NCBI RefSeq assembly: GCF_947494025.1 | Contig: NZ_CANLTQ010000004.1 | Coordinates: 180,192 to 244,191 of the forward strand | Source: an uncultured Jannaschia sp. | GTDB lineage: Bacteria > Pseudomonadota > Alphaproteobacteria > Rhodobacterales > Rhodobacteraceae | DNA length: 64,000 bases | Direction: 5' to 3' | Shown here: one piece after another, positions 6,834 to 64,000 of the stretch | How positions within the stretch are numbered: position 1 is the stretch's first letter | Layout of the letters: the number at the start of each line of letters is the position of its first letter | Notes under the pieces: model-generated | What the model was told of the DNA's origin: nothing | The model's database searches: none | What the model saw: only the letters and a program-made list of their open reading frames with translations | Position numbers and translations under genes: made by a program

Positions 6834-6985
6834 GTGCCTGTCCCGCCCATTCAGGGTCGCTCCCGCTATACGCCCGGCACGATGTTCCGTCAAAGCGACC
6901 CGGGGCGGCGAAGCGGTCTCCCGCCCGTCGCAAGGGGGCACCGACGATCACGTCGTCGTGAGGATCGGGCGCTGGTTCGCGCCGC

Positions 6986-8134
6986 CTAGCGATCGGCCAT
7001 GAAGGCCGCGAGCCGCGTCAGTCCCGCCTCGATGTCGGCCGTTGCCCGGGCATAGCTGAAGCGCAGGGTGCCCGCGCCACGCCCCGGGTCGAAGTCGAGG
7101 CCGGGCGTGACGGCGACACCTGCCTTGTCCAGGATTTCCGCGGCGAGGCTCAGGCTGTCATCCGTCAGGTGCCCGACATCGGCATAGACGTAGAAGGCCC
7201 CGTCGGGCGGGGCGATCCGGTCGAACCCGGCCGCGGGCAGGCCGTCGAGCATCAACTGGCGGTTGCGCGCGTAGACGGCGAGATTCGCGCCGAGCTCTGC
7301 CTCGGCATCCATCGCATGCAGCGCGGCGATCTGGCTCGCATGGGGGGCGCAGATGAACATGTTCTGCGCCAGACGCTCCACCGTCCGCAGATGCGCCTCG
7401 GGCACCACCATCCAGCCGATGCGCCAACCGGTCATGCTGAAGTATTTGCTGAACGAGTTGATGACGTAAACGTCGTCGGACACTTCCAGCGCGCTAACCG
7501 CCCGACCACCATACTGGATACCGTGGTAGATCTCGTCGGAGACGAAGGCCGTGCCGTTCGCCTGCGCGGCCTCGATCAGCGCGGACATCGCGTTGCGGTC
7601 GAGCATCGTGCCGGTTGGGTTCGCGGGGGAAGCGACGATGAGGCCAGCGAGGTCGGCGGGAAGCTCCTTCGCGACGGGCTGGTAGCGGTTCGCGGCCTGC
7701 GTCTCGATCCCCACGGCCTCGAGGCTCAGCGCCCGCAGGATTTGCCGGTAGGACGGATAGCCGGGCAGGCCGAGCCCGACCCGGTCGCCGGCATCGAAGA
7801 GCGCGGTGAAGGCAAGAAGGAACGCGGCCGAGGATCCGGCGGTCACGACGACGCGTTCGGGATCGAGTTCGAGGCCGTACCAGTCCCGGTAGAGCCGCGC
7901 GATCCGGGCACGCAGCGCGGGCAGGCCGAGCGCCACGGTGTAGCCGAGCGCGCCCGCCTCCATCTCGCGCGCCAACGCCTGTCGCGCAATGGCGGGGGCC
8001 GGCGTTCCCGGCTGCCCCACCTCCATGTGAACGATATCGCGCCCGGCGAGCTCGGCCCGCCGGGCCTGCTCCATGACGTCCATGACGATGAACGGGTCGA
8101 CCTGCGACCTGATCGAGACCTTGGTTGCGGGCAT
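6986..8134 (-). CDS. Class I/II PLP-dependent aminotransferase
   Basis: The 382-residue fold-type I aminotransferase carries the PLP lysine in SFSKYFSMTGWRIGW. Other typical blocks are VVTAGSSAAFLLAFTALFDAGD, ANPTGT and SDEIYHGIQY. These are features of the aspartate/tyrosine/aromatic aminotransferase subgroup; the substrate cannot be told from the sequence. The start at 8134 is preceded by AAGGAG at the right spacing, which decides it over an upstream in-frame ATG. It sits between rne and mrcA on the same strand, separated from rne by a strong hairpin, so it probably has its own promoter. Confidence 0.88.
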   Translation of the reverse strand: MPATKVSIRSQVDPFIVMDVMEQARRAELAGRDIVHMEVGQPGTPAPAIARQALAREMEAGALGYTVALGLPALRARIARLYRDWYGLELDPERVVVTAGSSAAFLLAFTALFDAGDRVGLGLPGYPSYRQILRALSLEAVGIETQAANRYQPVAKELPADLAGLIVASPANPTGTMLDRNAMSALIEAAQANGTAFVSDEIYHGIQYGGRAVSALEVSDDVYVINSFSKYFSMTGWRIGWMVVPEAHLRTVERLAQNMFICAPHASQIAALHAMDAEAELGANLAVYARNRQLMLDGLPAAGFDRIAPPDGAFYVYADVGHLTDDSLSLAAEILDKAGVAVTPGLDFDPGRGAGTLRFSYARATADIEAGLTRLAAFMADR

Positions 8135-51860: not shown

Positions 51861-51950
51861 GGAGAGGTGCCGGAGTGGTCGAACGGGACGGTTTCGAAAA
51901 CCGTTGTGGATGAAAGTCTACCCAGGGTTCGAATCCCTGTCTCTCCGCCA
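51861..51950 (+). tRNA. tRNA-Ser (anticodon CGA)
   Basis: The 90-nt gene has acceptor arms GGAGAGG and TCTCTCC plus an encoded CCA. The anticodon stem ACGGT/ACCGT encloses TTCGAAA, so the anticodon is CGA. It has the long variable arm typical of class II tRNAs and a T-arm of CAGGGTTCGAATCCCTG. Its 3' end marks the switch from core to island-like sequence. Confidence 0.96.
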
Positions 51951-52388
51951 CTTGCCCCCGCGAAAGCGTTCTCCCCATCCGGCTACGGCCGGAATTTCTC
52001 GTTGTATTCGAGGGTTATGCGGGTGTGGCTGAGCACCGGCCCTCGCGCCAGGAGGGCCGGAAGCGGTCTCTCCGGGCCGATATTCTCCGGACCTCATGAC
52101 TGCGTCGGTTTAGTGAAATTTTTACAAGTCACTGAAATCGATTATATTTCTCGCATGGCCCGCTGAACACTTCGATTTCAGGGGCGTACTCCCGGATGGA
52201 ACAGAAATCGAACTCGGAGGTGACGCGCGCGAGCCTGACAGAAGCCGTGGCGGAGCCCCTCAAGCGCAATGAACTGTACGGCTTCTTCGACTTTTTTCTC
52301 TCGGTATAACTGGCTCACGGCAAGCTACTTGTGCTCAGACATAAGCGACTGATATTCGTACCACATCCCCCAAGCGGAGTGGTTGTCA
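51951..52388 (+). other. 438-bp junction region after tRNA-Ser
   Basis: No integrase or other recognised gene is present. A 37-codon open frame (52197-52310, MEQKSNSEVTRASLTEAVAE...) has good core-like codon use but no family I know, and may be the remnant of a longer gene. GC falls sharply to the right of about 52090. The promoter of the nuclease gene should lie at the right end. Confidence 0.4.
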
Positions 52389-53795
52389 GTGCGATACATT
52401 GATTCAGCATCTCGAAACACTGCAGACGTTCTTGGCGAATGGCTCGCCAGCTTCGCCCCGCAGTCGGTGGAAGCTCTTCGGTGGCAGACCGGCTACTTTA
52501 GCGCAGATGGCTTAGCACCGTTGGTGCCAGTGTTAGACGCGCTCAAGATTCAAGATCTTCTCACGCGTTGCGTGATCGGATCCAACGGAGGAGAGACCGG
52601 AGAGCCAGATATCGAGACGCTCCTCCAGCTTGTTGGTAGCCCGCGGTCGAATGCACGGATCGGTGTTGTCAGCTATTCAGCCGGCCTGTTCCATCCAAAG
52701 GTTTATCATTTTACCAGACAAGACGGGACACAGGCCGCATACGTGGGGTCCGCAAACCTGACTTCTCCCGGCATTTCCGGGATGAACATTGAGGCAGGCA
52801 TGCTCTTGGACTCCTCCACCGGAGATCCTGATGATGTACTGTCGGACGTAGCTTCGGCCATCGACGCCTGGTTCACCGGCACCCGGCCAGGGGTTTCATC
52901 GATTGCATCGCTATCCGATATCGCGCCCCTTGTCGCCGCGGGCATCCTTGGGGTTGCTCCAACTCCACGCACGACGCAAAACACGTCTACAAGCAGTGGG
53001 GGGAGTTCGAACAAAGTCGGGCTCAAGCCACTTGTCAAATTCCCATCAGTTTCAACAAAGAGCAGCACTGCATCCGTTGCAGCTTCGTCGGCAGCCGCTC
53101 AGCCGACGTCACCGAACACGGCACCCACCGGCGCACCCCCCGCCACACCTGCCGCAGCACTTACCTCAAGTCCGCGGCCGCCATTTCCGGCATATGTACT
53201 TTTCGCGCCGGGCATCATGACGCCGACGCAAGGCGCTGCGGCACTAACTGGATCGAGCCTCGCGGGTGGGGCTGCTGGCTTGGTAATCCGTCTAAACAAG
53301 GACAGCGCGAGACACTTCTCTGGGGGCAGCGGTACGGCAAACGTCAGTGTGCCCGTTGCGACAATTGGTACGGTGAGATTCGGGGTGTTTCAGGGGAAGT
53401 ATCAAAGGCCGCGCGCGGAATTCGAACTTCGAATGCGTTTTGCCTCAAATCTGGGCACCCATGAAGCTCCCGCATCCAGTATCAACGTAATGGTATATGG
53501 GTATGCTCCTGGAGAATCTGGCCACGGAGACGTGAGGATGGTCGTTCCGGCCGCTCCTGCGCGCGAAATTCGCGATCACGCTACCGCAAACGGGTTTCGT
53601 GTTCCTGCGGTAAACGATCCGATGATCCTTGAATGGCCAACCGCAGCCGATCCCTGCTTCAAGGCCACTTTTGTTGATCAGGGGCACTCGCTATTCGGCA
53701 CAGTTGATGCATTGCTCATCGCCGCTTCGACCACGGGCGCACTCGTGGGACAAGGTGCTTGCTGGCTTCCCTCAGGTACTTCACCCCAATGGTAG
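52389..53795 (+). CDS. PLD-fold nuclease, probable restriction endonuclease (BfiI/NgoFVII-like)
   Basis: The 468-residue protein has an N-terminal phospholipase D-type domain with a single HxK motif (GLFHPKVYHFTRQDG) and the companion GSANLTSPG (about residues 102-128). A serine/threonine/proline/alanine-rich linker (about 193-265) leads to a C-terminal domain (about 270-468) I cannot assign. In BfiI two subunits pair their single PLD motifs and the C-terminal domain reads DNA. The gene is convergent with two DNA methyltransferase genes (26 bp between stops). A GTG at 52389, nine bases after GGAG, is the best start; a TTG at 52383 is possible. Confidence 0.75.
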   Translation: MRYIDSASRNTADVLGEWLASFAPQSVEALRWQTGYFSADGLAPLVPVLDALKIQDLLTRCVIGSNGGETGEPDIETLLQLVGSPRSNARIGVVSYSAGLFHPKVYHFTRQDGTQAAYVGSANLTSPGISGMNIEAGMLLDSSTGDPDDVLSDVASAIDAWFTGTRPGVSSIASLSDIAPLVAAGILGVAPTPRTTQNTSTSSGGSSNKVGLKPLVKFPSVSTKSSTASVAASSAAAQPTSPNTAPTGAPPATPAAALTSSPRPPFPAYVLFAPGIMTPTQGAAALTGSSLAGGAAGLVIRLNKDSARHFSGGSGTANVSVPVATIGTVRFGVFQGKYQRPRAEFELRMRFASNLGTHEAPASSINVMVYGYAPGESGHGDVRMVVPAAPAREIRDHATANGFRVPAVNDPMILEWPTAADPCFKATFVDQGHSLFGTVDALLIAASTTGALVGQGACWLPSGTSPQW

Positions 53796-53821
53796 AGGCC
53801 TCAGCAATCCCTACAGACGGA

Positions 53822-55306
53822 CTACGCTTTTCGAAGAATTATTAGCGTTTCAGCCGCGACCGCATTGCTAACATGGTACCCATATCGCTTGTAAGTCTGT
53901 AACGGAATTAGTTCATCGATGCTCCATCCAACAGACACTGCCAAGTTTGCCAAGTGCGATGGAGTATCAATATCGTACCGAATTCCTCCAATGGTCGTGT
54001 GGTTGTGCCCGACAATCAAAGCGTAAGGTGCTCCGGCTTTCATGAGGGCATTCACAGAGCGGAAGTTGGTCTTCATCGCTGCGAAGTATCTGTAGAGCAG
54101 CGACGGCACGGCGCGTCGCCGAAAGCCATCGCTCTCACTGAGCGAGTTAGCCAGCGTCACGCAAAGATCATACTCGTCAGTCGGTAAATCGGCCTCATTT
54201 AGGGCCATAGCTTTAGGCAGCTCGCGCTTTGAGCTTCCGCGTAGTTCGCGACTGCCGATCAGCGACGCTTCGAGCTCAAGAATTTGATCGGCAGGCAGAA
54301 GCCCGAGCCAGACCAATGACAGCCGCTGCGTGTCGATGTACGGCAGGGCCATGGCGTAGGGAGGGCTTGTGATGGCCGCATCGAACCTCTGCTGACCATC
54401 AACTTGCATCAACTCTGAAACGTCGCAAAGAAGTGCCCGACCAGATGTGGCCCCGGTCCCAATTACCTCGCGTGTAGCTAGGATGCGCCCGAGCACTTGT
54501 GAGACCGCGCTCAAAAATGCCTTGGTATAAGGCTCGGAGGGTAGTGGCGACGTTCTCCGCCGTATCCTTAGATCACGGGGATCTTGTTGCGAGTAGTCGC
54601 GGAGCAGATTGCTGGCAATGGCAAGAAATATCGGCGAAAGGTCGCCAGCGATGTCGAGGATCACTTTTCGCATGTTTTCGATCTCAACGTAAATGTCCTG
54701 ATCGAACCACCCTAACAAATACTCCTGTCGCTCGTCGGACGATTTCAAGCCAGTATGTTTTCTGGTGGACAAGAGGTGATCCGAAATATCCCTCTGCACC
54801 TTCTTCAGCGATTCAACAGACGCAGATAGCGCACAGAGCTTCGCGTTAGAAAGATATACAGCGAGTGGATTTATGTCCGTCCCGACCGCGTCTATTCCAA
54901 GATGCGAGCACTCTATTAACGTAGTGCCGCTGCCACAAAATGGATCGAGCACAGATTGGCCAGGGGTCACATGAAAAATGTTGAGAAGTGCCCTAGCAAC
55001 CTGGGGATTAAACTTTCCCTTGTACTCGTGAAGCCCGTGAACTGAGTAGCGGGTAGCTTGCCGGTTCCTACCGTTCCTTGCAGAAATCTCTAATTCGGAT
55101 TGCGTTGTCGGAACAAAGCCGCCGCCGTTTTGATACCCCTTAAAGTAAGTAAGGCGATCGGCATTGGTGTGGTCCCCTGTGTCCTGCAGCTCGATCCCAT
55201 CTTGGGCATCTTGCAACTTTGCGAACTCAATGAGTGAAGATGCCTCTCTAGAAGCTAGCTCCCTCTCATAAGGGTAGTATTTGTAGTCATGCCACTGGAG
55301 GCGCAT
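53822..55306 (-). CDS. DNA methyltransferase M1 (N4-cytosine or N6-adenine)
   Basis: The 494-residue protein has the AdoMet motif VLDPFCGSGTTLIE (about 120-132) and the catalytic motif ITSPPYAMALPYID (about 312-325). Upstream is HEYKGKFNPQ, which probably corresponds to motif X. Motif I precedes motif IV by about 180 residues, so the order is not the usual one for cytosine-N4 enzymes (IV before I). SPPY points to an exocyclic amino target. It is the last gene of the RHH-M2-M1 operon, overlapping M2 by one base (TAATG), and is a paralogue of M2. GC is clearly below the core genes. Confidence 0.85.
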   Translation of the reverse strand: MRLQWHDYKYYPYERELASREASSLIEFAKLQDAQDGIELQDTGDHTNADRLTYFKGYQNGGGFVPTTQSELEISARNGRNRQATRYSVHGLHEYKGKFNPQVARALLNIFHVTPGQSVLDPFCGSGTTLIECSHLGIDAVGTDINPLAVYLSNAKLCALSASVESLKKVQRDISDHLLSTRKHTGLKSSDERQEYLLGWFDQDIYVEIENMRKVILDIAGDLSPIFLAIASNLLRDYSQQDPRDLRIRRRTSPLPSEPYTKAFLSAVSQVLGRILATREVIGTGATSGRALLCDVSELMQVDGQQRFDAAITSPPYAMALPYIDTQRLSLVWLGLLPADQILELEASLIGSRELRGSSKRELPKAMALNEADLPTDEYDLCVTLANSLSESDGFRRRAVPSLLYRYFAAMKTNFRSVNALMKAGAPYALIVGHNHTTIGGIRYDIDTPSHLANLAVSVGWSIDELIPLQTYKRYGYHVSNAVAAETLIILRKA

Positions 55307-56490
55307 TACTCCACCTCCTTGCGTAGAATCAGAACAGTTTCGGTCTTTATGTTGGCATGGGAAAGATTGAAGGACTTTCGGCTTGCAGACAGAATACGAT
55401 CAGTCATGAAAAACGGCTTGAATCCAATAGATCTGGCCTCGTCGTTTATGATCTCTGCATTGTCGTACAGCTTGCCGTGGATCTTCGAGCGACCTACCAC
55501 GAATGCAACGTAACCACCCTTCACAACCACGCTATCCAGTAGATGCAAAGTTTGCCTCATTTGACGCGCAAAATCTTCAGCGGTATGATGGTTCTTCTTG
55601 AAAAAGTGAGCTCTCGCTCCAATTTCATCGGCCTTAACCTTCAGGGGGTCATAACCTAGCCACCACATCCGATACTTGTGGTAGAGCCAATACTCGTAGG
55701 CGTTCGGATAAGGTGGAGATGTAGCGACCAAGCCTACAGGCTGCCCGATCTCGAGCGGCTCGACCTTCAAAATGTCCCCTTCGACTACGTTCACCGGGCT
55801 CAATGCGTAGTCACGGCTTTTCAGCGCGACATTGATCCGGCCGACAGCGCGCAGAAAAAGCGCTGGAACTGCCTCAGGAGCAATATTCTTATCCACCGCA
55901 GCGTAACGCGTGTCACTCTCTTGGTTCGACACACGAACAATGATGCTCGAGAGCGCGAGCCGAAGGCAATCTTGCACTTCACTCACGGTCGCGCTTATTG
56001 CCGTGGCGATCTTGTTAATCTCGATCTGGACGCCTGGCGTGAACCAGTGATCAAGGTTAGGAATCTCAGGAACATCGCTTTTTGGCACTCCCCTCGAAAT
56101 TCTAACTAATTCTGCGGCATGCTCCTCGAGACCTACGGGGCACGATGCCGTCTTTACGCGAGACATCAAACAGGCAATCGGATTTAGATCGACGCCAACG
56201 GATGGGATCCCGAGCCGTTGACTTTCGACCAGAGTGCTTCCGCTTCCGCAAAATAGGTCAAGGACCGCAGTTGATTTTGGAATTGGCAACGAACTCAAGA
56301 TTGCTCGAGGTATTTCGGCAATGAATTTTGCGGGGTATGGATGGATACCTTCAATTTCGCTATGACTCCGTCGATCCACGAAGCTCCAATCAATGGCACT
56401 TAGCGACGACTTGATAGCGCCGTCAGGATCAGCCGGGTTGGGCCGATTTTCCAGGTCGGCCTGTAAGGTTTCGTTTGCCCCGTGCACCAT
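55306..56490 (-). CDS. DNA methyltransferase M2 (N4-cytosine or N6-adenine)
   Basis: The 394-residue protein has motif X-like HPYPAKFIAEIP (about 50-61), AdoMet motif VLDLFCGSGSTLVES (about 76-90) and catalytic VATSPPYPNAYEYW (about 255-268). A shared block WF...EI (DHWFTPGVQIEINK here, GWFDQDIYVEIENM in M1) shows that M1 and M2 are paralogues. Two amino-methyltransferases beside one nuclease fit a system with an asymmetric recognition site, one enzyme per strand. One-base overlaps join it to the neighbours on both sides. Confidence 0.85.
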   Translation of the reverse strand: MVHGANETLQADLENRPNPADPDGAIKSSLSAIDWSFVDRRSHSEIEGIHPYPAKFIAEIPRAILSSLPIPKSTAVLDLFCGSGSTLVESQRLGIPSVGVDLNPIACLMSRVKTASCPVGLEEHAAELVRISRGVPKSDVPEIPNLDHWFTPGVQIEINKIATAISATVSEVQDCLRLALSSIIVRVSNQESDTRYAAVDKNIAPEAVPALFLRAVGRINVALKSRDYALSPVNVVEGDILKVEPLEIGQPVGLVATSPPYPNAYEYWLYHKYRMWWLGYDPLKVKADEIGARAHFFKKNHHTAEDFARQMRQTLHLLDSVVVKGGYVAFVVGRSKIHGKLYDNAEIINDEARSIGFKPFFMTDRILSASRKSFNLSHANIKTETVLILRKEVE

Positions 56491-56702
56491 TATTTTTCTT
56501 CTCGTTGTGGGCGCACTAGCGGAAGTGTGCCTTGATCTATTGTTGGTTCTGCCCGACTCAGAAAGTCAGCCACGGCTCGGCGAGCAATCTGTGCAACTGG
56601 AGCATCGTCACGCTCCGCCAGCGCGAGCAACATTGCGTACGCTCGCTCGTCCAGGTTGATTGTTACCCTGGCTGTCTTTGTTCGTCCCTTCGGCCTTGCC
56701 AT
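56490..56702 (-). CDS. Ribbon-helix-helix protein, probable regulator of the methyltransferase operon
   Basis: The 70-residue protein begins MARPKGRTKTARVTINLDER, a basic arm plus beta-strand typical of CopG/Arc repressors, followed by two helices (AYAMLLALAERDDAPVAQIA). It is the first gene of the three-gene minus-strand operon and overlaps M2 by one base. Small DNA-binding control proteins are frequent in restriction-modification systems; a control role here is inferred. The 223-bp region to its right, up to 56925, is a divergent promoter region. Confidence 0.75.
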   Translation of the reverse strand: MARPKGRTKTARVTINLDERAYAMLLALAERDDAPVAQIARRAVADFLSRAEPTIDQGTLPLVRPQREEK

Positions 56703-56925
56703 TCAGTACGTTTAGTGCAGCAAAAAACTGTCTGCAAGGCAAACCTCGGCTATATGCGCGTGCGTCTGCGGCAAAGGCGAGACTGCTCCGACCACTCGAC
56801 TGGAAATGGCTTGTGCACCCGCGCCAGCGTCACCTCCGCCCCCTGCTTCCCATCAAGGATAGCCTCGACGATTTCTGGCGCGAACAGGGTCAGGCGTAGG
56901 ACACGCTTGAAAGAGGTGGCAAGTC

Positions 56926-57613
56926 ATGTCAAAGCGCTATGTTGTGGATAAATCGAGCGGCGAGCATCTTGTCTTCCCCGACATCTTAAACATTGATGTC
57001 CAAATTGGAGAAGCGGAAGATGGGATCGTTTCCCTTTCTCTGATTGCTCGTCTTTCCGCTGGCAGCGACTGGGGCGACCTGCCAAAGGCCCGCGAAATTG
57101 CTCTAAGCTCTCCGTTCTTCATTTTGGTTCTTCATTTTGCGGCGCCCATCAGACGAAGCAGTAAGTGAGTTTCAGTTCATTCGAAATGAGGGCCTTAATG
57201 GTACTGCAGTGCTGCTTGTTGAGGCTGGCCACGTCGACTCTGTCATTTCAAAAATTCAAACTGATCCAACATACTTTGATCCTGAGTACTCGGGGACGTC
57301 TGAGCCGTTCTATTCTCTGGTGGAGATCGCTTCGGTTAGCTTAGATGAACACCAAGTCGAAACCGTTCGAGTTCAGAATGGTTTGGCTAATCAGTTCAGC
57401 AAGCTTGTTGAGATTGTAAAAGCGGGCGTCGACGACGCGGACCGGCCTCACACACTTGGCCTCGTCGATAAACTGCTCGTACAGGGCGACTTTGAGCGTA
57501 GAGAAGAAGTATGGTGGCTTGTGCTCTCTCTTGGTGCCCTGAAAGCTGATCTGACGAAAGTTGAGGAAACAGTGCTTCAGGTTTCGGGGCTTGCCAAGGA
57601 TATTTCGATGTGA
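56926..57613 (+). pseudogene. Unknown gene broken by a 13-bp tandem duplication
   Basis: The first part (56926 to about 57126, MSKRYVVDKSSGEHLVFPD...) runs into a stop soon after the repeat at 57114-57139. The second part (to 57613, ...RRPSDEAVSEFQFIRNEG...LAKDISM) continues in another frame. Removing one 13-bp copy joins them into a single open frame of about 224 residues (reading SSPFFILRRPSDEAVSEF across the joint). I recognise no family; the protein is acidic, soluble and rich in valine and glutamate. The next gene's GTG overlaps its stop, so the cluster was translationally coupled. The break could be recent or reversible. Confidence 0.75.
57114..57139 (+). repeat. 13-bp perfect tandem duplication
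   Basis: GTTCTTCATTTTG occurs twice in direct contact (57114-57126 and 57127-57139). As 13 is not a multiple of three, the second copy shifts the reading frame of the host gene. Confidence 0.95.
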
Positions 57614-58059
57614 GTAAGAGCTGCGCTTTAAGGGTATCAACACTAGTCGCGATTTCAGGGTTCGACTGGAGTCCGGTGCTAGCGAATGGCAGTGATTACG
57701 CCTGCCCGATTGAACCAATGAACCTCTTTGGGCCGATGTTCGACCCTGTTCCTGTTCCCGGATTGAACACAGAGTTCGGTACCTTCGAGTCTTGGCCGCT
57801 AACGCCTGAGCTAGCTTCGCTCGGATTTGTTGCTCATCGCGCTTCCGATGGAGCCTTTCTTGTGTTCCCGAACCGACTTTCGGCTACGATGTTGTCATGG
57901 TCGAAGCTGATTGGGCCCGGCGATGAGGTCTGCGCATCAAGAGTTGTGGCCGTCTTTCAGTCCGAAAGCGAGTCTCAGACGATCGCGCCACTTATCGAGG
58001 CGATAAAACTTGAGGAGCCATCTGCCGAATTTATCCGTCCAATTATGCAAGACGTCTAA
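57610..58059 (+). CDS. Protein of unknown function in the post-R-M cluster
   Basis: The 149-residue protein starts at a GTG overlapping the preceding stop (GTGA). It is acidic, soluble, has no signal peptide or membrane helix, and contains proline-rich MNLFGPMFDPVPVPGLNTEF and TFESWPLTPELASLGFVAHR. I recognise no family. Its coupling to the broken upstream gene and to the next gene, which follows directly, suggests a three-gene unit. GC and codon use are those of the island, not of the core. Confidence 0.6.
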   Translation: MSKSCALRVSTLVAISGFDWSPVLANGSDYACPIEPMNLFGPMFDPVPVPGLNTEFGTFESWPLTPELASLGFVAHRASDGAFLVFPNRLSATMLSWSKLIGPGDEVCASRVVAVFQSESESQTIAPLIEAIKLEEPSAEFIRPIMQDV

Positions 58060-58329
58060 GTGGAATTTACTATCCCATTTCTTGGATACATGAGCCGCTA
58101 CGACCCGAGGCCGCTGTTTCCTTTAGGTGGCGCGATTATCGTTTGGGATCTTGATCGAACCAATACACGCATTTTGGAGCGTTTTATCGCTGATGGCGGC
58201 CCATCAGTTGATCTGCCAGGCGCTCTTATGTTCACTGAGCTGTATACGAGCCTATACTTTTCAATATCCCTTAGCATAGACGACGATTCTCTGCTTGAAA
58301 ATCAGTTTTCCGTCTCAATAGAAAACTGA
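58060..58329 (+). CDS. Small protein of unknown function next to the IS element
   Basis: The 89-residue protein has a GTG start immediately after the upstream stop (TAAGTG). It reads VEFTIPFLGYMSRYDPRPLF, then IIVWDLDRTNTRILERFIAD and a serine/leucine-rich end. No family is recognised. Its stop lies about 22 bp before the left end of the IS481-type element, so it may be complete or may have lost its original end to the insertion. Confidence 0.5.
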   Translation: MEFTIPFLGYMSRYDPRPLFPLGGAIIVWDLDRTNTRILERFIADGGPSVDLPGALMFTELYTSLYFSISLSIDDDSLLENQFSVSIEN

Positions 58330-58351: not shown

Positions 58352-59370
58352 TAGGTGTTTGATCCCACGGTTTGATGGTGTGATCCTTTCTGCGGAATGG
58401 AAGGAAGCCCTATGGGACAAGTTCGTCACGGCTGCGCCACGACCACGTTCGCCGTCAGAGCTGCAATGCAGCGATCGCAGGCTTCGCTCTCGCAGCTGAG
58501 CGGCGAGTTGGGGATCAATCCCAAGACGGTCGCCAAGTGGCGGAAGCGGGCGACAGTCGAGGATCTCAAGACCGGTCCGAGGGAGCCGCGCTCTACGGTT
58601 CTGACCGAGGCGGAGGAGGCGATGATCGTCGCGTTCCGGCGTCACACGCTGCTGCCGCTGGACGATTGTCTCTATGCCTTGCAGCCCTCGATCCCGCACC
58701 TGACGCGGTCAGCCCTGCACCGGTGCCTGCAGCGGCATGGCATCTCACGCCTGCCGGACGTCGAGGGCGACAAGCCCAAACGGCAGAAGTTCAAGCGTTA
58801 CCCGATAGGCTTCTTTCATATCGACATTGCGGAAGTGCAGACCGCCGAGGGCAAGCTCTACCTGTTCGTGGGCATTGACCGAACCAGCAAGTTCGCGGTC
58901 ACACAGCTCGTCGAGAAAGCCGACAGGAAAACGGCGTGGGAGTTCCTGCAGCACATGCTCGAGGCGGTGCCCTATCACGTCCACACCATTCTTACCGACA
59001 ATGGCATCCAGTTCGCCGAGCAGCCAAGAAACAGGAACACGATCCTCTCCCGGCCCATGCGCTTCGACATGATCTGCGAAGTTAACGGGATCGAGCACCG
59101 GCTGACCAAGCCCAACTATCCTTGGACAAACGGCCAGGTCGAGCGGATGAACCGCACCATCAAGGACGCAACCGTCAAACGTTATCACTACGACAGCCAC
59201 GATCAGTTCCGAACGCACCTTGGCGACTTCATGGCTGCCTACAATTTCGCCCGCAGGCTCAAGACCCTCGGTGGCCTCACACCTTACGAATACATCTGCA
59301 AAATCTGGACATCAGAGCCGGATCGATTCATCCTCAATCCGATCCACCAAATGCCGGGACTGCACACCTA
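58352..59370 (+). mobile_element. IS481-family insertion sequence
   Basis: The element is about 1 kb and carries one transposase gene. The ends are imperfect inverted repeats: TAGGTGT...TCCC on the left and its counterpart GGGA...ACACCTA on the right, with TGT/ACA termini as in the IS481 family. I could not define a target-site duplication, so the exact borders may shift by four bases (58356-59366). Confidence 0.75.
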
Positions 59371-59371
59371 G
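58412..59371 (+). CDS. IS481-family transposase
   Basis: The 319-residue protein has an N-terminal helix-turn-helix (LSQLSGELGINPKTVAKWRK) and an rve-type DDE domain. The DDE residues are in FFHIDIAEVQTAEG, ILTDNGIQFAE and NGQVERMNRTIKDATVKRY. The length is normal and the frame intact, so the element could be active. The start MGQVRHGCAT is preceded by AAGGAAG; an earlier ATG at 58397 is less likely. Confidence 0.93.
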   Translation: MGQVRHGCATTTFAVRAAMQRSQASLSQLSGELGINPKTVAKWRKRATVEDLKTGPREPRSTVLTEAEEAMIVAFRRHTLLPLDDCLYALQPSIPHLTRSALHRCLQRHGISRLPDVEGDKPKRQKFKRYPIGFFHIDIAEVQTAEGKLYLFVGIDRTSKFAVTQLVEKADRKTAWEFLQHMLEAVPYHVHTILTDNGIQFAEQPRNRNTILSRPMRFDMICEVNGIEHRLTKPNYPWTNGQVERMNRTIKDATVKRYHYDSHDQFRTHLGDFMAAYNFARRLKTLGGLTPYEYICKIWTSEPDRFILNPIHQMPGLHT

Positions 59372-59702
59372 TTTTCGGCGTGCGAGCGCTTTTTTGCGGT
59401 CGCAGACAATCTAGTCAGGGCTGCCGATTGCCGGAATTATAATGGAGCAGCCCCAAAGGCAGGCTCATCCGGATCGCGCTGGACCTCGCTCGCACGAAGC
59501 TCTGAATATAGGACCGCAAAGGGCGCGTTCGGAAGTGGAGGGCAGCGTCGCTGACTTCTACGCTGCCCGCCCCGGGCCCATCCCACCGCTGCCGCGGCCG
59601 ATTTTTTCAGTGATGGTGCGGCGTTGGGTAATCGCGGATTGACGGGAAGCTCGGCAGGAGGCACTTTCTATCTTGCAATTCGTTCTGAACATGGGGCTCA
59701 AA
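59372..59702 (+). other. 331-bp gap between the IS element and the protease gene
   Basis: No supported gene. GC is higher than in the left flank of the IS, so the two flanks do not look like halves of one gene. An AGGAGG-type sequence at about 59656-59661 precedes possible starts of the protease gene (TTG 59673, ATG 59691 or ATG 59703). Confidence 0.4.
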
Positions 59703-61541
59703 ATGCGTGTTGCTTCCCTGATCGCACTTGCTGCCATCATTCCTACGCCCGTGCTGCCCCAAGACGCGGCAGCAGCGCTGGTCACGACTATGCACGCCGA
59801 GCGGAATACGCCCAGGCTCCAGATACTCGCGCCTGAGCAGCAGGGGCGCCAAGCCCTCATGACGACTCAGGTTACGCCTCAGGACATGCCCGACAAACTC
59901 ATAGCGGCTTGGCGGTTCCTGACAGAGCGCGCCAGCGAGTATGGGCTTACGCCGGACCTTTCCAGCCTCCAACATGTCGGGACGCAGGAAACGGAGCTCG
60001 GCTCCGTCTTCCGGTTCAGTCAGCAACTCGGCGGGCGCAGAGTTGCCGACGGCGAAATCGTAGTATCGGTGAACAATGACAATCAGGTCTATCAGGTCTA
60101 TAACAATATTTATCCGGCCACAGCCGAGAAGGCCGCGCGGGCCAGTTTTGCCGAGATACCCCCTGATCGGGCACGGGACCTGGCGTGGGATACGCTCGGC
60201 GCGCAAAAGCTACTTGCAGAGCCGCTATCGGAACTCGTCTACATACCCGACGAGAATGGCTTCGTCCTAGCCTATGATGTGCGCCTCTACGTGACGCGCA
60301 ACAAAACGGACGGCGAAGCCGAGCCAGGCTATTAGCAAGTCTTGGTGGACGCCCTCACCGGCGACGTGATCGGTGACCCTAACGAGCTCAGTACTAACGA
60401 AGGTAAACGGGCCGAAGAGGACAACTATTTACAAGAGGCGGCCAATATTGATGCCGCCCTACGCTCGTTTTCGGCCGTGACCCAGCGCGCAGCCAAGGGC
60501 GGAGAGGGGGTAGAGCGGGTCACCGGACAGGGACTAGTCTTTAATCCGGATCCCATCACCTCGCTTGCAACCGCTCTAACGGACAATTCGCCAGCCGTTG
60601 CGTTCGAGCCCGCCTACAACGAAGTGAACTTGCTTGAGTTGGCTAAGTTCAACAACGTCGTTCGGCTCGAGGGACCGTGGGTAGCGATCACCGATTTCGA
60701 GCCGCCGAACACGATCCCCTCGACTACGGCCGATGGTGTCTGGACGGCCAAGCGCGGCGACAACGCTTTCAACGACGTGATGACCTACTACCACATCGAT
60801 CAAAGTCAACGGTACATCCAGTCGCTCGGCTTTACCGGCATTCAGGCCCGCCCCATTCCCGCTGACAGTGACGGAATGAGCGGTGCTGATAACTCACACT
60901 ATGTCGGTCCTCCTATAGACCGTATCGCCTTCGGGCATGGGTGCGTCGATGACAACGAGGACGCCGACGTGATCCTTCATGAGTACGGGCACGCAATGAC
61001 CTATCATATCAACCCGAGCTGGAGCGGGGGTGATAGCCGCGCGATCGGCGAGGGCTTTGGCGACTACTGGGCAGAGACATACAGTCATTCCACGCCCAAC
61101 GGGGCCTCGTTCCAAGCTGACAGAGTGTTTGAATGGGATGGCACGTGTCCTTGGGGTGGCCGCAGCGTAAACGTGACCGGTGTGCAATATGATCCTGATA
61201 AAAATTACGGTGCTCATGAGGGCATTGGAAACGGGGTGCAGTCGGACGAACTATGGTCCACGCCGCTCTTTCAGTCCTTTCTTGAACTCCGCGGACGAGA
61301 TGTGCCGCGGGAGGAGATCGACACAATCGTATTGCAATCGATGTTCGGCTTGGGCGCCGGTTTCAAAATGCACGATTTGGCCGCGGCCGTAGTCGCCACA
61401 GCAAAACAGCTCCACCCGCAGGGCGTGCATTCCGGTATCTTCCAGGCCCAATTCGAAAAGCTGAATATCTTAGGGCCAGATGGATCCGTTCCGACTTGGC
61501 CCGGAGGCGTCGATGCCGCCGGTGCGGCCGTGAAGCGGTGA
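59703..61541 (+). pseudogene. Thermolysin/fungalysin-like secreted metalloprotease with in-frame amber codon
   Basis: The frame encodes a signal peptide (MRVASLIALAAIIPTPVLPQ), an FTP/PepSY-type propeptide (about 30-250) and a zinc protease domain. The domain has HEYGH (codons at 60978-60992) and the downstream glutamate in AIGEGFGDYWAE (about 61050), a pattern seen in M4/M36 proteases. A TAG at 60333-60335 interrupts the propeptide where relatives have tryptophan (...PGY[stop]QVLVDALTGDVIG; compare WQVLVDA-TG). A single TGG-to-TAG change explains it. Everything else is intact, so inactivation is recent or the codon is suppressed. The HAD-M28 gene follows after 23 bp. Confidence 0.85.
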
Positions 61542-61564
61542 AACCACCGGGGGCTTGAACAGCT

Positions 61565-62989
61565 ATGAGGGCGGTCATCTTTGATCTCGACGGCATGGTA
61601 CCTAGCGCTGGAGCGGCCGCGCTCCGGCCAGACGCTCGTGATCTTATCGCCGCGATCGCCACCTCCGGCGCGCCCTTCACGTTGACGATAACCGGCGCCA
61701 GTACAAGGAAAGGTTGCACAGCGGCTCGGAGGCGGCTCGCGATCGCCCTTGGTGATGCTGATCTCGGTGACTCGCCGAGATCCTTGACGAATCGACTAGT
61801 TATCACCCGCGCCTTATCACATGGTGCGAACGAATACGCTGAGAACTTGAACCAGCTTGTGAGTTATAGCGGCGAGCATGACCACACGCATCTGCCCGTC
61901 TTTGTGTCCGCTGATCCGCTTCATCTAGAAGTTGCGGAGCGCCTTGGGATGCTATCTTATCCACTCCCGGCGCTGGACTTGGCAGACCGTCCGCCAGCAA
62001 AGGGAACGTGGCCATTCGGGCGGTCATGGTCGGAGCTAACGGCGAGCCTGCTCGAAACTATTAGTTTTGAGCCCTGCAAGAGGCGAGAGACTGCAGGGAG
62101 AGCTCGGCAGGCCGCCGCCGTTTCGAAAAGTGCTGCGGTGGACGAACGGACTGTCGGGCTCGTTCAGGAAGTAGATGCCAGTCGCCTGCAGGCGAGCCTT
62201 ATGAGTCTCGTCGACTGGAATACCCGCTGGTCGCATTCAGAAACGCTCAGTCAAGTTGCCGATGCAGTTAGGGACGCGTTCCTTACGGCAGGGTATCCGC
62301 AGGACTGCGTCCGCTTTCAACCGTTCGCGATGCCTAATGGTAGCCCCCAACGGAACGTCCTTTGTGGGGCGAGTGAATTGGGTGCAGGCTTGGTCCTTCT
62401 CTGCGCCCATTACGACAGCCAATCAACTGGCCCAACCGCCCCAGCACCAGGTTGCGACGACAACGCAAGCGGCGTGGCTGTCGTGCTGGAAGTCGCCAGG
62501 ATTCTGCGGGACGCCGCAATGCACCAGAACGTGCTTTTCGCCGCATTCGCCGGCGAAGAGCAGGGTCTATTTGGATCGCGCGCATGCGCAGAGATTGCCG
62601 CGGCTGAGGGCTGGGACCTGAAGCTCGTCATTAACCTCGACATGGTCGGCCATAACTCTTCGGCCAAGCCGCAGACGACCATTGTGGAATACGACCAGGG
62701 CAATCGAGTGCCCGACAACGATGCAAAATCACGTGAATTTGCGGCGATAATGGCTCAAGCCGCCGTAGACTACACAAACCTCTCCGTCGAGCATGACAAT
62801 ATTTCGAACAGCGATTACATGCCTTTTGAAGCGAGGGGCTACGTGTGTGTCGGAGTTTACGACGGAGCTGCCGCTTTTGACTTCTATCACACCGAAAACG
62901 ACACGATCGACAAGGTCGATCTGGGGTATCTGTCCGAGGTGACAAAGTTGGTTGTCGGGGCAGTTGCGACGATCTCCGAGCCATCCTGA
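61565..62989 (+). CDS. HAD-like / M28 zinc aminopeptidase fusion
   Basis: The 474-residue protein has two parts. Residues 1-150 look like a degenerate haloacid-dehalogenase domain (VIFDLDG with the first DxD, TLTITGAS, and DPLHLEVAERLGM). Residues about 205-474 are an M28 peptidase with every metal ligand: AHYDS (His282), GCDDNASG (Asp298), FAGEEQGLFGS (Glu331/332), NLDMVGHN (Asp359) and YHTENDT (His442). No signal peptide is seen, although M28 enzymes are usually exported. It follows the protease gene by 23 bp. The combination is unfamiliar to me; the HAD-like part could also be a mis-joined fragment. Confidence 0.75.
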   Translation: MRAVIFDLDGMVPSAGAAALRPDARDLIAAIATSGAPFTLTITGASTRKGCTAARRRLAIALGDADLGDSPRSLTNRLVITRALSHGANEYAENLNQLVSYSGEHDHTHLPVFVSADPLHLEVAERLGMLSYPLPALDLADRPPAKGTWPFGRSWSELTASLLETISFEPCKRRETAGRARQAAAVSKSAAVDERTVGLVQEVDASRLQASLMSLVDWNTRWSHSETLSQVADAVRDAFLTAGYPQDCVRFQPFAMPNGSPQRNVLCGASELGAGLVLLCAHYDSQSTGPTAPAPGCDDNASGVAVVLEVARILRDAAMHQNVLFAAFAGEEQGLFGSRACAEIAAAEGWDLKLVINLDMVGHNSSAKPQTTIVEYDQGNRVPDNDAKSREFAAIMAQAAVDYTNLSVEHDNISNSDYMPFEARGYVCVGVYDGAAAFDFYHTENDTIDKVDLGYLSEVTKLVVGAVATISEPS

Positions 62990-62999
62990 TCGCAGGAGC

Positions 63000-63155
63000 G
63001 AGGCTGCGGACGCGGAGGTGATCGTGGAAGTGGATCTGCGCCCGACCATGCTCTGTGTTGAGTCAAAGGCGCAGGATCAGCAGGCCCGTGCTCTTGTGTT
63101 CCGCACCTGCGAGCAGATCGTGAACCAGCGGACAAAGATGGCGCCCGGCATCTGA
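63000..63155 (+). pseudogene. IS110-family transposase fragment
   Basis: The frame reads LCVESKAQDQQARALVFRTC then EQIVNQRTKM before a stop. This resembles the segment between the DEDD domain and the C-terminal domain of IS110-type transposases (typically VK-EQQA---FRTR--LVRQRT). Both ends of the gene are missing. Confidence 0.55.
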
Positions 63156-63499
63156 GCGATGCTGACGCGCGGCGAGAACTATCGTGGTTCGACCATCGCG
63201 CCGCCTGATTCAACTGCCGGGTAGAGCCGGCCTTAAGAGCTGTGAGGCAGGCATCAGCCAAATGGACACCTGATTGACATGATCCGGGTCGGGCAAACCA
63301 GAAACCTTCTCCGAGCTTCGAGCTCGCTGTTGGAGATTCGGCGCCGCTTCGAGCATCACCATCTCGGCCAGCGGCGCCAGTCAGCCGCAAGAATAGGCCT
63401 GACAAAGGTACGCACTCGATCACATGTCCGGCGATCAGAGATTCCTTGCAAGCCAAGCGGTATCCACAAGAGAAGGTTGTCTTTCAGGCCCATTCCCTC
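63156..63499 (+). other. 344-bp gap before the IS5-type element
   Basis: I see no gene here. It may include non-coding remnants of the IS110-type element. Confidence 0.35.
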
Positions 63500-64000
63500 G
63501 GCGCTGTTGCACATCTCGGTAAGGGGGATTCACTGAGCGCGCGCTGACGGTTAGCTCGAGGGTATGCCGAAGCCTTCCCCAACCCGCTACCGCACGACGA
63601 ACTGGTCCGACTACAACGCGGCGCTGCGCAAGCGCGGCTCACTGTCGGTTTGGTTCGACCCCGAGATGGTCTGGCACGCCGACAAGACCGGCAAGCGCGG
63701 CCGGCCCGAGACCTTCTCGGACGCTGCCATTCAGACATGCCTGACGCTGAAGGTGCTCTTCGGTCTTCCGCTTCGGCAGACGGTCGGGCGGGTCGAGAGC
63801 CTGATCCAGATGGCTGGACTCGATTGGCCAGTCCCGGACTATTCGACGCTGTGCCGGCGGCAGGCGCGGATCGCGGTGCAGATCCCGTATCGCACATCGG
63901 GACAGCCGCTGAACCTGCTCGTCGACAGCACCGGCATCAAGTTTCGCGGTGATGGCGAATGGCAGGCCCGCAAGCATGGCCCGTCACGCCGGAGGCAATG
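63500..64000 (+). mobile_element. IS5-family element, left part (continues beyond the window)
   Basis: The left end is set at GGCGCTGTTGCACATC, which resembles the GGC-TTGTTG termini of IS5/IS903-type elements. The transposase starts 64 bp inside. The right end lies outside the window. Confidence 0.7.
63564..64000 (+). CDS. IS5-family transposase, N-terminal part
   Basis: About 145 codons are visible before the window edge. The start MPKPSPTRYRTTNWSDYNAA and the block RGRPETFSDAAIQTCLTLKV then LPDYSTL-like VPDYSTLCRRQARI are typical of IS5/IS1182-like DUF4338-type (transposase DDE, IS5) proteins. The first Asp of the DDE triad is visible in LNLLVDSTGIKF. The frame is open to the edge. Confidence 0.88.
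   Translation, partial: MPKPSPTRYRTTNWSDYNAALRKRGSLSVWFDPEMVWHADKTGKRGRPETFSDAAIQTCLTLKVLFGLPLRQTVGRVESLIQMAGLDWPVPDYSTLCRRQARIAVQIPYRTSGQPLNLLVDSTGIKFRGDGEWQARKHGPSRRRQ

Follow-up and report, generated by a model that had tools for sequence, protein, structure and literature searches.

The window analysed here is a stretch of 64,000 nucleotides from an uncultured Jannaschia sp. (contig NZ_CANLTQ010000004.1, positions 180,192 to 244,191). It contains a cassette encoding a nuclease (R), two amino-methyltransferases (M2 and M1) and a small putative regulator. This locus is probably a Type IIS-like restriction-modification (RM) system, in which a nuclease made of PLD and B3-like domains would likely cut unmethylated ACTGGG, while two methyltransferases of the BfiI-linked type would protect this sequence. 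The comparison of related loci (designated by L numbers) supports the idea that the methyltransferase pair was conserved while the nuclease gene beside it was replaced at least twice. We lean towards a model in which the pair is the lasting core of the system and the nuclease a plug-in: two nuclease families with sequence-unrelated B3-like domains would have been swapped several times, both reading ACTGGG via different surfaces, and the control genes (RHH-like, XRE, or MerR fused to M1) would be plug-ins too.

According to the parts of PMC4267653 and PMC4081073 cited here, the target of BfiI is ACTGGG and the system includes two methyltransferases, one for each strand. A search of plasmids with M2 gave 48 records, of which the best four loci were examined (the other 44 matches are below 29% identity where listed). 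Two are close relatives, L047 and L048 (55.9 and 52.1% identity), in which M1-M2 is followed, in the same direction, by a BfiI-type nuclease that matches BfiI_DBD (E 2e-70 and 7e-72) and 2c1l (E 3.5e-145 and 4.3e-150). In the third, L049 (33%), the pair is diverged and faces a PLD protein in convergent orientation; in the fourth, L050 (28%), the annotation of the inspected stretch includes no PLD gene. BfiI-type nucleases also occur on the viral contigs L055 and L056, where they converge with the same pair. The methyltransferases of L007, whose nuclease is of the window type, are 59.9 and 57.4% identical to those of L047; the nucleases of these two loci share only a 41-residue match around the active site (E 0.03).

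Maximum-likelihood trees were built for M1, for M2 and for a joint alignment of both, with the diverged pairs as root; they comprise 11 window-type and 4 BfiI-type rows. The alignments leave aside L002, a near copy of the window, and the distant L050, and that of M1 also leaves aside L052, whose M1 is cut by the contig end. The nuclease labels interleave on all three trees. Approximately unbiased (AU) tests reject the grouping of the window-type loci in one clade (p 7.9e-14 for M1, 4.8e-4 for M2 and 8.9e-71 for the joint alignment) and that of the BfiI-type loci (p 2.4e-6, 8.1e-4 and 5.3e-57, respectively), and the starred branches force 2 (M1), 2 (M2) and 3 (joint) label changes. The branch of L056 is long and its composition odd. 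In trees without L056, the starred branches still force 3 label changes, and the test rejects a single clade (p 0.0064) for the ten window-type rows that are left when L012 is set aside. At least two exchanges are therefore supported, based on the interleaving, the AU rejections and the label changes forced with and without L056. Neither M1 nor M2 has a column with a fixed difference between the nuclease types (11 versus 4 rows), against 22 columns of M1 and 18 of M2 in which all 15 rows have one residue that the outgroup lacks.

The nuclease R is composed of a PLD domain (residues 1 to about 190), a disordered linker (about 192–250) and a predicted B3-like recognition domain (about 262–468). 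The initial annotation, made from the sequence alone, had recognized a single PLD motif (HPK...GSANLTSPG), which is indeed present with HPK at 102–104, and a 70-residue low-complexity linker; residues 192–206 and 225–248 of the structure model have a predicted local distance difference test (pLDDT) score below 50. H102, K104, S121, N123 and E135 are invariant in an alignment of 119 nuclease rows, and H102, K104, N123 and E135 align with the BfiI profile, the active-site residues used for this comparison being those given in the cited part of PMC4081073. The N-terminal domain matches PF09565, the NgoFVII family, above the cut-off (E 2.4e-9). The C-terminal domain matches no Pfam family, and BfiI_DBD (PF18243) is absent from R at E values up to 1. 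A structure search with the predicted model nevertheless matched both domains to the BfiI fold, along with R.NgoAVII (4rct) and the ATP-dependent SauUSI (7clg). The comparison with BfiI and NgoFVII by structure prediction, which had been proposed for the C-terminal domain, thus gave the B3-like fold but no sequence relation to BfiI_DBD. R is predicted to join an N-terminal PLD domain to a C-terminal B3-like recognition domain, as in the BfiI-type Type IIS systems.

R has at least 332 homologues. Sequence searches against PDB chains (phmmer and profile) gave no useful match. At E 1e-5, tblastn with R matched nothing in either plasmids or phages; L049 escapes this search because its PLD protein is too distant. 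With filters off, the linker and C-terminal part of R give weak BLAST matches (E 1e-7 to 8e-4) to L014, L022 and L028, which were taken as linker likeness.

Both methyltransferases match N6_N4_Mtase (E 1.2e-10 and 3e-12), and the MTase_II models of PADLOC cover them over nearly their full length; both match these amino-methyltransferase models instead of C5-cytosine ones. FCGSG precedes SPPY in both proteins, in agreement with the order of motif I before motif IV described initially. SPPY is often associated with N4-cytosine methylation, and for this motif order the interval between motifs I and IV would hold the target-recognition part.

A scan of genomes yielded 44 loci, 11 of which have a full-length relative of R (L002–L010, L012 and L019), and M2 followed by M1 lies on the opposite strand, convergent with the nuclease, in all 11. 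The association of R, M2 and M1 is far beyond chance. The hosts of these loci include alpha- and gammaproteobacteria, a Nitrosovibrio and a myxococcote. The initial annotation would have been abandoned for a PLD protein grouping with phospholipases or with helicase-linked proteins, or for methyltransferases conserved without any nuclease; both readings of the PLD protein were rejected, and the pair stands beside a PLD nuclease in every full-length locus.

M2 was found only in its own genome among 20 genomes of the genus and among 394 of a family draw, and in two of 385 genomes of a class draw (its own and a 29% relative). With the M1 profile at E 1e-40, four of 398 genomes of a phylum draw and three of 390 of an order draw matched, own genome included. 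The five matches outside the own genome are L158, a fused system with a PLD nuclease, and four distant relatives (L153–L155 and L159, best M1 match 27–34%), in which tblastn with the nucleases at hand recognized no PLD nuclease. The system is rare and looks acquired.

Searched with the M2 sequence alone, viral contigs gave no relative and phages only distant ones. The M1 profile matched 10 viral loci, which were sorted by nuclease presence as a test of the idea of methyltransferases without nuclease. A PLD nuclease gene stands beside the pair in five of them (L140, which is the L056 contig, L059, which is the L055 contig, L143, L144 and L145). Two others, L141 and L142, apparently the same sequence, have a lone M1-like frame (about 6930–8083, 51% identity), with Type I restriction genes adjoining in L142. 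L147 is cut by the contig end, and no PLD motif was found in L146 and L148. The M2 profile matched at least 80 viral loci, with two strong matches, the L056 contig and L061, where an M1-M2 fusion (961 aa) is convergent with a PLD gene. Five weaker loci were inspected: L062, L063, L065 and L066 have no PLD motif, and L064 has a chance-like one only, in a gene further off. In L158 (5114–8086, apparently identical to L144:6812–9784), an RHH-looking stretch, M1 and M2 are joined in a single frame of 990 aa, which converges with the gene of a PLD nuclease of 525 aa. A further M1-M2 fusion (923 aa) is seen in L145.

In the proposed system, R would likely cleave ACTGGG sites left unmethylated, and M1 and M2 would protect the sites of the host, one per strand. 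Two R chains would together build a single metal-independent active site, as is published for BfiI; the asymmetric site would be bound by the C-terminal domain of each chain, and cleavage would occur a few bases downstream of it. The BfiI-type systems cut 5/4 downstream of their site. L047, L048, L055 and L056 may be expected to cut ACTGGG by homology to BfiI. The simplest reading is that all the nucleases found with these pairs share this one target, because the pairs cannot be distinguished by nuclease type and a host must protect the sites of its nuclease. The BfiI-like RM reading already made in the initial annotation is supported by the conserved active site, the fold match and the BfiI-linked methyltransferase pairs.

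Several observations weigh against this interpretation. The nuclease itself gives no sign of equal specificity, since BfiI_DBD is not matched and the profile comparison of the C-terminal domain with the BfiI DNA-binding domain gives a best E of 0.4. The whole-chain match between R and BfiI is non-rigid (root-mean-square deviation of 15–16 Å), the predicted template modelling score (pTM) of the model is 0.53, which leaves the orientation of the domains unfixed, and the PLD part is matched equally well by SauUSI and BfiI. M1 and M2 belong with the BfiI-linked family, but their kinship is to pairs beside BfiI-type nucleases and not to M1.BfiI and M2.BfiI themselves, and enzymes about 50% identical can differ in target. 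As for the exchange, the BfiI-type loci found number only four, a joint L047+L048 branch is rejected only narrowly without L056 (p 0.049), the L012-L055 branch carries a star in the tree of M2 (97/92) but in none of the joint trees, and the columns counted are not a line of evidence separate from the trees.

The same kind of system could have a target other than ACTGGG, if the methyltransferases and nuclease shifted specificity jointly after an exchange. The recognition domain of R, which has no sequence relation to that of BfiI, would fit such a shift, as would the I-to-IV intervals, which average only 40.5% (M1) and 32.2% (M2) identity across nuclease types. However, these intervals are about as different within the window-type rows (43.0 and 36.1%), and neither the alignment columns nor the trees separate the two nuclease types, so that a joint shift appears unlikely. 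It is far less probable that the locus encodes an ATP-dependent PLD system like NgoAVII or CglI, with a nuclease that needs a helicase-like partner. R does share its PLD family (PF09565) and its predicted PLD plus B3-like architecture with R.NgoAVII and R.CglI (target GCCGC), 4rct and 7clg are among its fold matches, and a helicase gene is found further along in L002 (16731–18413), beyond the recombinase gene of that locus. Yet R, M2, M1 and the small gene are the only likely genes of the cassette, and no ATPase/helicase partner is among them; NgoAVII and CglI are described with a single C5-methyltransferase in the cited part of PMC4267653, compared to two amino-methyltransferases here. The match to SauUSI, which exceeds 800 residues in the PDB, is limited to the PLD part (model residues 1–223).

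The methyltransferases might also act alone in gene regulation, the PLD protein having another role or the nuclease being no longer active. The lone M1 frame of L141/L142 is compatible with this, as are the decayed or partial nuclease copies of L011, L013 and L033, which have no methyltransferase match. However, the nuclease frame of the window is open with all active-site residues present, and the full-length relatives of R have all retained the pair, which makes this explanation very improbable as well.

Compared to BfiI and its isoschizomer BmrI (Type IIS, ACTGGG), whose nuclease has 358 residues, the preferred Type IIS-like system has a longer nuclease (468 residues) with a disordered linker. 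The BfiI_DBD match is missing from R, whose PLD domain is of the NgoFVII Pfam family, but the H-x-K active site with N and E is common to both. The nuclease is convergent in the window, L055 and L056, and co-directional in L047 and L048. In the diverged pair systems (L015, L016, L049 and L052), a PLD nuclease likewise converges with an M1/M2 pair, which is of the same superfamily as that of the window. Their C-terminal domains are 41–86% alike among themselves and have no BLAST match to that of R at E 1e-3, and their pairs are only 31–38% identical to that of the window. A MerR-type helix-turn-helix (HTH) lies on M1, by a Pfam match in L049 (E 6.6e-9) and a similar N-terminus in L015 and L016. 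Among the papers that literature searches listed, by title and abstract opening and in part for some searches, none deals with this system or with an ACTGGG methylome.

The initial annotation described the 70-aa protein as a ribbon-helix-helix (RHH) regulator in place of the usual HTH control protein. It has no HTH match, in keeping with that claim, but the RHH assignment is not secured. The protein is kept in L002 and L003 (84% identity in L003), and has no Pfam match in the window; its L003 counterpart matches RHH_9 below the cut-off (E 0.037). Its model is poor (pLDDT 61.9), with no Foldseek match under E 1, and pairwise BLAST with the RHH_1 protein of L055 gives nothing. At the start of M1, L055 has this small RHH_1 protein (E 4.5e-9) and L056 an XRE-type HTH protein (E 7e-15). 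The small proteins of L004–L006, L010 and L012 are RHH-like by eye without matching a Pfam RHH family, as is the RHH-looking stretch of the L158 fusion; that of L010 ends before M1. No such protein was recognized in L007–L009, L019, L047 and L048. For the protein of the window, the RHH label therefore remains a good guess. The small putative regulator is different from one locus to another.

The PLD part is also found with other partners. L015 and L016 have a similar PLD part, a different C-terminal domain and a diverged pair, and the other 31 of the 44 scanned loci match R partially, mostly in the PLD part. The ten neighbour genes of partial loci that were scanned comprise four double D12 methyltransferases (L014, L017, L026 and L028), four of the Eco57I type (L018, L020, L024 and L025), one helicase (L021) and one gene without a match (L029). 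All eight methyltransferase genes are convergent with the PLD genes. When grouped by BLAST, the C-terminal domains form three groups that track the class of neighbour: L014/L017/L026/L028 goes with D12, L018/L020/L024 with Eco57I and L015/L016/L049/L052 with the diverged pair. The Eco57I-group domain also occurs in L022, whose neighbour gene lies outside the scanned set, and in L021, an exception with its helicase neighbour; L025 is ungrouped. The PLD part is thus a module that occurs with different recognition domains, and the nucleases that have it make up a modular superfamily. In L021 (10001–13934), the PLD protein is convergent with a gene of DEAD, MZB and HRQ1 winged-helix domains in place of a methyltransferase. 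In L029 (10001–11536), the PLD domain is fused to a formylglycine-generating-enzyme-like (FGE-sulfatase) domain and faces a gene without Pfam match.

Coordinates of the features of the cassette and its edge in the window
Feature	Position	Strand	Description
R	52389..53795	+	predicted metal-independent restriction nuclease, 468 aa
M2	53822..55306	-	amino-methyltransferase, 494 aa; FCGSGTT 123-129, SPPY 314-317
M1	55306..56490	-	amino-methyltransferase, 394 aa; FCGSGS 80-85, SPPY 258-261
Small gene	56490..56702	-	70-aa RHH-like putative regulator, heads the methyltransferase unit; assignment sub-threshold
Cassette (common block)	51943..56905		94% identity to L002 (51943-56896), 70% to L003 (51943-56905)
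tRNA-Ser(CGA)	51861..51950	+	at the cassette edge

When the open frames of the window were re-derived, the four annotated genes were found exactly in place, and the one-base overlaps reported between the three minus-strand genes correspond to TAATG at both junctions. R starts with GTG, and its L003 relative with TTG at the equivalent place. In an operator search, 3 promoter-like sites were found, as in shuffled sequence (mean 3.3), and 7 terminator-like sites, near the shuffled level (mean 5.0); no operator was drawn from the aligned upstream regions of the window, L002 and L003.

The G+C content of the gene stretch is 52–56%, with flanks mostly at 65–70%, in an assembly of 4.39 Mb and 215 contigs. 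The block common to L002 and L003 begins inside the last 8 bases of the tRNA-Ser gene and ends at 56896–56905. L002 and L003 have these 8 bases, CTCCGCCA, at the left edge of the block as well, although a tRNA gene was not detected in either. Beyond the small gene, these loci (L002:9553–16238 and L003:9552–16616) carry an accessory gene, followed by a gene for a large serine recombinase with Resolvase, Recombinase and zinc-ribbon domains; the window retains the accessory gene as a remnant only, and no recombinase gene adjoins the cassette there. The sequence left of the block in L003 (9182–9557) matches the window at 63135–63502. The left edge, starting within the tRNA-Ser gene, is also common to L011, L013 and L033; the tRNA was found in L013 and L033, and in all three loci the nuclease gene is truncated or nearly lost. 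The cassette is most simply explained as the cargo of an element that would integrate at tRNA-Ser.

To the right of the cassette, small overlapping or adjoining open reading frames (57137–58329), the first two without Pfam match and without tblastn match in L002/L003, are followed by an IS481-family transposase (58397–59371). A lower-GC stretch (59673–62989) encodes thermolysin-propeptide-like (FTP), weakly M36-like and M28 peptidase proteins.

Restriction enzymes and methyltransferases are usually held to co-evolve as fixed partners, because a change in one alone should harm the cell. If the proposed exchange is true, RM systems could turn over safely by swapping the nuclease for another that has the same target, while the protective pair stays as it is. 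These loci would also be a matched set for asking how two sequence-unlike recognition surfaces on one fold read the same site, and an uncharacterised nuclease family would gain a predicted target. This suggests that bacteria can exchange the cutter while keeping the protective methylases.
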